A DNA stretch of 64,000 nt from Olivibacter sp. XZL3. GTDB lineage: Bacteria > Bacteroidota > Bacteroidia > Sphingobacteriales > Sphingobacteriaceae. The stretch lies in contig NZ_SBJH01000042.1 of assembly GCF_004368405.1 (NCBI RefSeq), forward strand, positions 62,001 through 126,000, read 5' to 3'. The notes beneath the pieces were generated by a model, which was given only the letters and a program-made list of their open reading frames with translations, did not search any database and had not been told where the DNA came from. The position numbers and the translations under genes were made by a program. This document shows positions 50,287 to 52,669 of this stretch, one piece after another. The stretch's first letter is position 1; the number at the start of each line of letters is the position of its first letter.

Positions 50287-51162
50287 CTAACATACCACAT
50301 TTAAAGAAGACGGCAAAACTTCAATTGACAATTTTTTGTCGAGCGTCAGCGGCTCTCCGTCTAAATGCACGGGTCCGCTTTTTGGCCTTTCGATTATAAT
50401 GTGTTTGCCCTTAATGATTTCTACATACTCGGACTGATGGGCGGTGCGACTAAATAAGTGGTAAATCATCAAGGGAAATTGAATCATAGGAAATTGCTTT
50501 ATGATGCAGACATCCAGCAGTCCATCGTCAACCGACGCTCCCGGTGCGATATAGGCATTGTTTCCATATTGCGGCGAATTGGCGATACTGATCATAAAAG
50601 CTTCGCGCTGCAATTCCTTTCCATCGATATGAATCGTATAATACTCCGCTTTATACTTACTGATCTCGTTTAGCACGATCCGCAAGTAGCCCACGGGGCC
50701 ACGTGTCATGTTTTCAGCGAATCGATCACTGATAAGCGCGTCGAAGCCCATGCCCGCCACATTAAAAAAAGCTTTTCCGTTCACTAAGCCGCTATCGATG
50801 GTAATGATATCACCTTTATTTATTTTGGCTATGGCTTGTGAAACGTCTGTAGAAATACCGAGATATCGCGCCAAGCCATTTCCTGATCCTTCCGGTACGA
50901 TTGCCAAGGGAATGGGCGTATTCAACAGTTCTTTTGCAATTTCATTAATGGTACCGTCGCCCCCAACCGCTACCACCAAATCAACATGTTCCTGTATGGC
51001 CTGCTTGGTCAATTCAGATGCATGATTTGCTCGCTCGGTTACCTTAAAACTGGCGTCAAACAAATCCAGGTTTAAGTGCCTCTTTGCCAACATTTCAAAG
51101 CCTTTCTTGCTTTTGCCCCCTGAGATTGGATTGATTAAAAACTGAATACGCTTTTTTGCCAT
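50287..51162 (-). CDS. Diacylglycerol/lipid kinase family protein
   Basis: The 291-residue protein has the DAGK catalytic motif V-V-A-V-G-G-D-G-T-I-N-E near residues 64-75, preceded by I-N-P-I-S-G-G-K-S-K. The E-G-S-G-N-G-L-A-R-Y loop follows. Such YegS/DgkB-type enzymes phosphorylate diacylglycerol or sphingoid-type lipids. Sphingolipids occur in many Bacteroidota, so a sphingosine-kinase-like role is a possibility, not a claim. Confidence 0.85.
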   Translation of the reverse strand: MAKKRIQFLINPISGGKSKKGFEMLAKRHLNLDLFDASFKVTERANHASELTKQAIQEHVDLVVAVGGDGTINEIAKELLNTPIPLAIVPEGSGNGLARYLGISTDVSQAIAKINKGDIITIDSGLVNGKAFFNVAGMGFDALISDRFAENMTRGPVGYLRIVLNEISKYKAEYYTIHIDGKELQREAFMISIANSPQYGNNAYIAPGASVDDGLLDVCIIKQFPMIQFPLMIYHLFSRTAHQSEYVEIIKGKHIIIERPKSGPVHLDGEPLTLDKKLSIEVLPSSLNVVC

Positions 51163-51241: not shown

Positions 51242-51249
51242 TACTTTTG
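51242..51249 (+). promoter_or_regulatory. -7 promoter element of the metK transcript
   Basis: TACTTTTG, an exact TAnnTTTG match, 10 nt before the riboswitch-like stem. A TTG occurs at 51212-51214 but is farther away (27 nt) than usual. Confidence 0.45.
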
Positions 51250-51259
51250 CACGGTAAAA

Positions 51260-51324
51260 TGTGGAATGATTTGCGTGCCAACTACGTGGCGGGATTGCAA
51301 CCACAGTAAAAAAAAGTGCTAATG
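51260..51324 (+). ncRNA. SAM-II-like riboswitch upstream of metK
   Basis: The leader matches the SAM-II pattern I remember. P1 pairs 51260-51264 (TGTGG) with 51301-51305 (CCACA). In the loop are TGATTT (51268-51273) and TTGCA (51295-51299), with an extra small hairpin (GCCA 51277-51280 with TGGC 51287-51290). After P1 come TAAAAAAAA and GTGCTAA. A pseudoknot can form between ATTGCA (51294-51299) and TGCTAAT (51317-51323) with one bulged T. metK makes SAM, so feedback control fits. SAM-I features are absent. P1 has two extra bases before GATTT compared with the pattern I recall. Confidence 0.65.
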
Positions 51325-51387
51325 ATTGCCTTTCTAATTACGCTTCATTTTTGCTTATCAAACATTTTACAGACAGATAAAATATAG
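51322..51387 (+). CDS. Possible 21-codon upstream ORF in the metK leader
   Basis: The ATG at 51322 follows GTGCTA and opens a 21-codon hydrophobic reading frame (M-I-A-F-L-I-T-L-H-F) that stops at TAG 51385-51387, 28 nt before metK. The first two bases of its AUG are in the proposed SAM-II pseudoknot. It has no strong ribosome-binding site. It could be a chance ORF or a leader peptide; no family is recognised. Confidence 0.3.
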   Translation: MIAFLITLHFCLSNILQTDKI

Positions 51388-51415
51388 GTAGAACTCTTTT
51401 GAAAAAAATACTTTT

Positions 51416-52669
51416 ATGCCATACTTATTCACTTCTGAATCTGTTTCAGAAGGACATCCTGATAAAATAGCGGATCAAATTTCTGATGCACTTATTGACA
51501 ATTTTTTAGCGTGGGATCCTGACTCCCGTGTTGCAATTGAAACCCTAGTAACTACCGGACAGGTTGTATTAGCGGGAGAGGTTAAATCGAACACCTATTT
51601 GGATGTTCAGAAAATTACGCGATCGGTTATTGAAAAAATCGGCTATACCAAGTCGGCTTATATGTTCGAAGCGAATTCCTGCGGTATTTTGTCGGCCATC
51701 CATGAACAATCCTCGGATATCAACCAGGGTGTGGACCGCAAAGAAAAGCAAGACCAAGGGGCCGGCGACCAAGGGATTATGTTTGGGTATGCAAATAAAG
51801 AAACAGAAAATCTCATGCCCCTGGCACTCGATCTTTCTCATAAATTGCTGATGGAACTGGCGGCTCTTAGAAGAGAAAACAGGGACATCACCTATTTACG
51901 TCCGGATGCCAAAGCGCAGGTTACGATTGCTTATAATGACGATCACACGCCTTTGCGTGTTGACACCATTGTTGTTTCCACACAACACGACGATTTTGCG
52001 GAGGAGGAAGCTATGTTAGCAAAAATCAAGCATGATATCATTCATATTTTGATTCCACGGGTAAAGGCTCAGCTGACACCCGCGCTTCAGGGGCTCTTTG
52101 ATGAAGAGATCACTTATCATATTAACCCGACTGGCAAATTTGTTATCGGAGGTCCACATGGAGACACCGGCTTAACGGGCAGAAAAATTATTGTAGACAC
52201 CTACGGTGGTAAAGGCGGCCATGGCGGTGGCGCGTTTTCCGGAAAAGACCCTTCGAAAGTAGACCGCTCTGCCGCTTATGCTGCCCGACATATTGCGAAA
52301 AACCTAGTCGCTGCCGGTGTGGCGGATGAAATACTTGTTCAGCTATCTTACGCCATTGGGGTAAAACATCCTATGGGGATTTACGTAAATACTTACGGGA
52401 AAAGCAACGTTGCTTTATCCGACGGACAAATTGCAGAGAAAATCAGTGCACTTTTTGACCTTACGCCATATGGCATTGAAACGCGGTTAAAATTAAGGAA
52501 CCCTATTTATTCAGAAACAGCCGCCTATGGTCATATGGGCAGGCAGCCGGTTACCGCGACGAAAACTTTCGAGAACTCTACGGGCGAAACAAAAACGGTA
52601 GAAGTTGAACTTTTTACTTGGGAAAAGCTTGATCATATCGAAGCGGTAAAGGACGCTTTTGGAATTTAA
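51416..52669 (+). CDS. metK: S-adenosylmethionine synthetase
   Basis: MetK makes SAM from methionine and ATP. The 417-residue protein has the N-terminal [14 protein letters not shown], the [11 protein letters not shown] hexapeptide region, and [24 protein letters not shown]. It is somewhat longer than the E. coli enzyme (384), as is common in Bacteroidota. Likely feedback-regulated through the riboswitch-like leader; a strong terminator follows. Confidence 0.97.

Follow-up and report, generated by a model that had tools for sequence, protein, structure and literature searches.

The leader of metK in Olivibacter sp. XZL3 is, by its sequence, a genuine SAM-II riboswitch, and we favour, with a rough probability of 0.6, a feedback on metK in which two structures compete for one pseudoknot strand, the linker ahead of the gene serves as expression platform and Rho-dependent termination is the likeliest output. 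The window analysed here is a 64 kb stretch (64,000 nt) of contig NZ_SBJH01000042.1; all positions refer to it, and the features of the leader as well as metK itself lie on its forward (+) strand. According to the proposed mechanism, plentiful SAM would bind the aptamer, close the pseudoknot and so lower the production of MetK. The contested element would be the 3′ strand of P2, the pseudoknot helix, engaged in P2 when SAM is bound and probably in a hairpin with the linker when it is not. The pyrimidine-rich, G-poor linker would act as the expression platform and, once freed, would allow Rho to end transcription ahead of metK or early within it. A short open reading frame that begins in the leader would take no part in the switching.

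A search of the whole window against Rfam with cmscan returned a single match above the gathering score, the long-loop SAM-II variant RF01726 at 51255–51332, with 44.9 bits at a gathering score of 44 (E 2.6e-5, or 2.8e-7 when the search is confined to 701 nt). The homologues in congeneric genomes reach 50–55 bits, and together with the match itself they argue that the aptamer is no chance hit. That the window scores so close to the threshold is probably due to a 19-nt insertion in the long loop, which brings its own small hairpin (GCCA 51277–51280 with TGGC 51287–51290), and to two extra A residues. A stem of this GCC/GGC type is retained by several congeners. The P1 stem pairs TGTGG at 51260–51264 with CCACA at 51301–51305, in accordance with both the sequence and the Rfam alignment, while the pseudoknot P2 joins ATTGCA (51294–51299) to TGCTAAT (51317–51323). 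Further recognizable elements are TGATTT, TTGCA (51295–51299), an A tract and GTGCTAA (51316–51322). An initial annotation of this DNA had proposed a SAM-II riboswitch from P1 and these four elements; each of them lies where it was placed, and the Infernal search bears the assignment out.

Among 179 metK leaders of the phylum, UUGCA and UGCUAA are almost invariant, and in the window the two are complementary to each other; owing to this near-invariance the set carries no covariation that could speak for P2. Long-loop SAM-II riboswitches were described by Weinberg et al. in 2010 (PMC2864571), and Bacteroidetes are among the host groups listed for RF01726. The window matches the sequence and structure of this family above its gathering score and shows no essential difference from it, merely the loop insertion with its small hairpin. 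The sensor thus belongs to a class already known and reported from Bacteroidetes, and as a riboswitch it is ordinary; binding of SAM by this particular aptamer is putative and follows the family assignment.

The gene behind the aptamer encodes the methionine adenosyltransferase MetK (51416–52669; TIGR01034, 505 bits at a cut-off of 309), whose nearest named relatives are those of Olivibacter jilunii (93% identity) and O. domesticus (89%). The sequence at 51242–51249, TACTTTTG, agrees with TAnnTTTG, the −7 promoter element of Bacteroidota. It lies 10 nt before P1, and the mRNA therefore probably starts right at the aptamer. Averaged over 34 groups, 71% of the loci have such a box no further than 45 nt ahead of P1, at a median distance of 13 nt, and alphaproteobacterial SAM-II leaders share both the aptamer and a promoter a few nucleotides before P1 (Corbino et al. 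2005, PMC1273637). Divergent from metK, at 50287–51162, lies a gene for a lipid kinase of the YegS/BmrU type (TIGR00147, 158.8 bits).

With an aptamer that begins very close to where the mRNA is predicted to start, a riboswitch acting mainly on mRNA stability would also fit, the bound pseudoknot protecting or exposing the 5′ end. There is a precedent in S. meliloti, whose SAM-II riboswitch stabilises the metA and metZ mRNA (PMC9373788). We regard this as improbable for metK, as it leaves unexplained both the conserved composition of the linker and the competing helix described below.

Within the family Sphingobacteriaceae, RF01726 matches were obtained in 189 of 201 sampled genomes, and within the class in 44 of 295; wherever it could be read in these samples, the gene downstream is metK. 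The genome of Olivibacter sp. XZL3 holds one significant SAM-II match, the one at metK. It also carries two SAM-I riboswitches, one of them upstream of a metH-like gene, and most genomes of the family contain two to four SAM-I copies. A search for a similar leader on plasmids found none.

From the pseudoknot strand to the ATG of metK the 179 leaders span a median of 80 nt, with the 5th and 95th percentiles at 64 and 122 nt. The 93 nt of the window are therefore ordinary, and the view of the initial annotation that a spacing of about 90 nt is unusual does not survive the comparison. Five metK leaders do without the aptamer, namely those of three Parapedobacter, of Sphingobacterium sp. CZ-2 and of bacterium A37T11. 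The same five have no linker, their promoter box standing only 20–22 nt from the ATG, from which it follows that aptamer and linker are present or absent together. In Sphingobacterium haloxyli, the metK leader (L212, approximately 1425–1500) looks as if most of the SAM-II aptamer had been removed by an internal deletion, with pieces of P1 and the end of the linker retained.

Is the short reading frame in the leader part of the switch? The initial annotation had suggested that SAM hides the AUG of this frame and that its translation might control metK. The positions it gave are accurate: the 3′ strand of P2 (51317–51323) takes in the A and the T of an ATG at 51322–51324, and the frame opened there runs for 21 codons to 51387, ahead of the metK ATG at 51416. 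The overlap of AUG and pseudoknot speaks for such a model, as does the nearest relative O. jilunii, in which the pseudoknot strand runs into an ATG in the same way as in the window (GTGCTAATG). A further point in its favour would be the NUG triplet that lies within the pseudoknot strand in 176 of the 179 leaders; this, however, just follows from the aptamer consensus UGCUAA, which is preceded by any base but C.

Comparison with relatives shows that neither the start codon nor the frame is conserved. Among the five congeneric genomes, three retain the aptamer and have GTGCTAAAA in place of GTGCTAATG, hence no ATG, which leaves the start codon in two of the five. In the larger set an ATG at the pseudoknot strand occurs in 14 of 179 leaders, ten of them from one other genus, two from Olivibacter and two scattered. 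In 125 family leaders, the frame that passes through the pseudoknot (NUG CUA AAN) stays open for a median of 19 codons, as against 19 and 20 codons in the other two, and a similar number of frames run through to metK in all three; open frames are to be expected here, given the low G content of the linker. Moreover, the phase of the pseudoknot strand relative to metK is random (67/58/54 in the 179 leaders). The annotation itself had named the absence of the ORF from close relatives that keep the pseudoknot as fatal to its model, so of its interpretation the SAM-II riboswitch ahead of metK stands and the masked AUG does not. The congeners and the frame comparison likewise dispose of a leader ORF that would start at the in-frame GUG at 51316. 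Judged from these sequences, the 21-codon frame at 51322–51387 is very probably a coincidence, and control of metK through its translation is very improbable.

The strand competition that we favour instead calls for a second partner of the P2 3′ strand, and the linker offers one. In the window, a predicted hairpin at 51305–51355 pairs 51305–51312 with 51348–51355, 51314–51318 with 51341–51345 and 51320–51323 with 51337–51340, capturing the whole strand including the bases of the ATG. Folding of this single sequence (−8.9 kcal/mol, z −1.52, with 17 of 200 shuffles equally stable) weakly suggests such a structure. Comparison supports an equivalent helix in some relatives. In one genus (g14) the helix NUGCUAA/UURGCRN is paired in 99.0% of cells compared to at most 53% when slid, contains a compensatory change from UA to GC in four sequences and is recovered unguided by RNAalifold. 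In an alignment of Sphingobacterium and Olivibacter that includes the window, AAGUG..AAAA and UUUU.CACUU are, scored on a hand-made structure, paired in 92.7% of cells compared to at most 57% when slid; four cells, in two pairs, are altered on both sides.

Over 38 groups, a group-wise test of sequestration yielded a modest excess over shuffled linkers (p 0.03). Little or no excess was seen for the competing helix in genera g15, g18 and g21, in family f4 and in several families, and in Olivibacter alone the sequestration of the P2 strand was 0.45 versus 0.46 with shuffled linkers, that is, without excess. We regard a competing helix as likely for some clades and, for the species of the window, as possible.

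A second anti-aptamer element may exist in the form of GCAATC, which is complementary to GATTGC in the aptamer. Across the 38 groups it is the most enriched hexamer in the metK linkers, and it appears only together with aptamers of the GATTGC type (26 of 159, versus 0 of 20). Linkers behind aptamers of the GCTTGC type lack the matching complement, and for this reason we leave the element as suggestive. In the window, GTAAAATG (51254–51261, where the leader starts) and CATTTTAC (51363–51370, within the linker) are perfect complements of each other, and the latter recurs in the leaders of O. jilunii and O. domesticus although the rest of their linkers differs.

The linker between pseudoknot and metK (51323–51415) is the probable expression platform. 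It is absent along with the aptamer from the five relatives mentioned above, and its composition is distinctive: in the 179 metK linkers C makes up 25.8% and G 11.1%, and 176 of them have an excess of C over G. The window's own linker stands at the weak end of the family, having a weak excess of C (11 C and 8 G in 68 nt). As controls, other leaders in the window contain 16.9% each of C and G, and sequence ahead of the metK promoter has 17.7% C and 15.7% G. In related genomes the bias is missing behind TPP and cobalamin riboswitches, where C exceeds G in 10 of 18 and in 9 of 22 linkers, respectively, and is much smaller behind SAM-I, whose linkers hold 19.9% C and 17.0% G, with C in excess in 17 of 27.

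Rho classically loads on RNA that is rich in C and poor in G, and the genome carries a rho gene. From this combination Rho-dependent termination emerges as the first guess for the output, tentative when taken on its own and less likely than not. The richness in C could instead serve the loading of ribosomes. Two other outputs drop out: an intrinsic terminator was found neither in the window linker nor in any of the 179 linkers, and a model in which one of the two states masks the metK start directly is at odds with the predicted accessibility of that start, which is equal between them (0.545 and 0.540). In many SAM-II representatives, by comparison, a putative terminator separates P2 from the gene and takes the place of direct control of the ribosome-binding site (Corbino et al. 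2005, PMC1273637), and the alphaproteobacterial leaders with their putative intrinsic terminators differ in this respect from those of metK.

Ribosome loading could be controlled at a distance if, without SAM, the A- and pyrimidine-rich RNA at about 51306–51360 offered ribosomes a standby site, 90 nt ahead of the metK start, and the SAM-bound pseudoknot blocked it. The model for this is S. meliloti, where the metA SAM-II riboswitch uses an element of its own to govern a start codon that lies 74 nt further downstream (PMC9373788), and both the missing terminators and the pyrimidine-rich, G-poor linker of nearly all relatives would agree with it. The element in S. meliloti, however, is a Shine-Dalgarno sequence, and a motif of this kind is seen at the metK start in only 2 of the 179 leaders, in line with the natural lack of Shine-Dalgarno sequences in the mRNAs of Bacteroidota (PMC6847099). 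It also counts against a standby site that in the aptamer-less relatives metK is preceded by a very short leader without one, and that the accessibility of the start hardly changes in the prediction. We consider this output possible but rather doubtful. Our ranking, which is a guess, puts Rho-dependent termination first, with distant control of ribosome loading close behind.

Among the known systems, the metA riboswitch of S. meliloti (PMC9373788) comes near to that of the window in that an AUG adjoins the pseudoknot and the true start codon lies tens of nucleotides downstream. It differs in possessing a Shine-Dalgarno sequence and a terminator, neither of which the window leader has, and the AUG in the window is not conserved. 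One could go further and suppose that in a phylum whose ribosomes make no use of Shine-Dalgarno sequences the SAM-II platform itself is of a different make, with a hairpin that captures the P2 3′ strand and with a linker, rich in C and poor in G, that mediates a SAM-controlled, Rho-dependent termination of metK; in this full form we think the proposal is unlikely.

With the riboswitch itself being ordinary, the less settled matter is how riboswitches act on their gene in bacteria that make do without Shine-Dalgarno sites, here over a distance of 90 nt to the start codon. For this question the metK leaders of Sphingobacteriaceae present a consistent and testable case: while the leader ORF does not recur, the spacing, the composition of the linker and, in some clades, the competing helix do.
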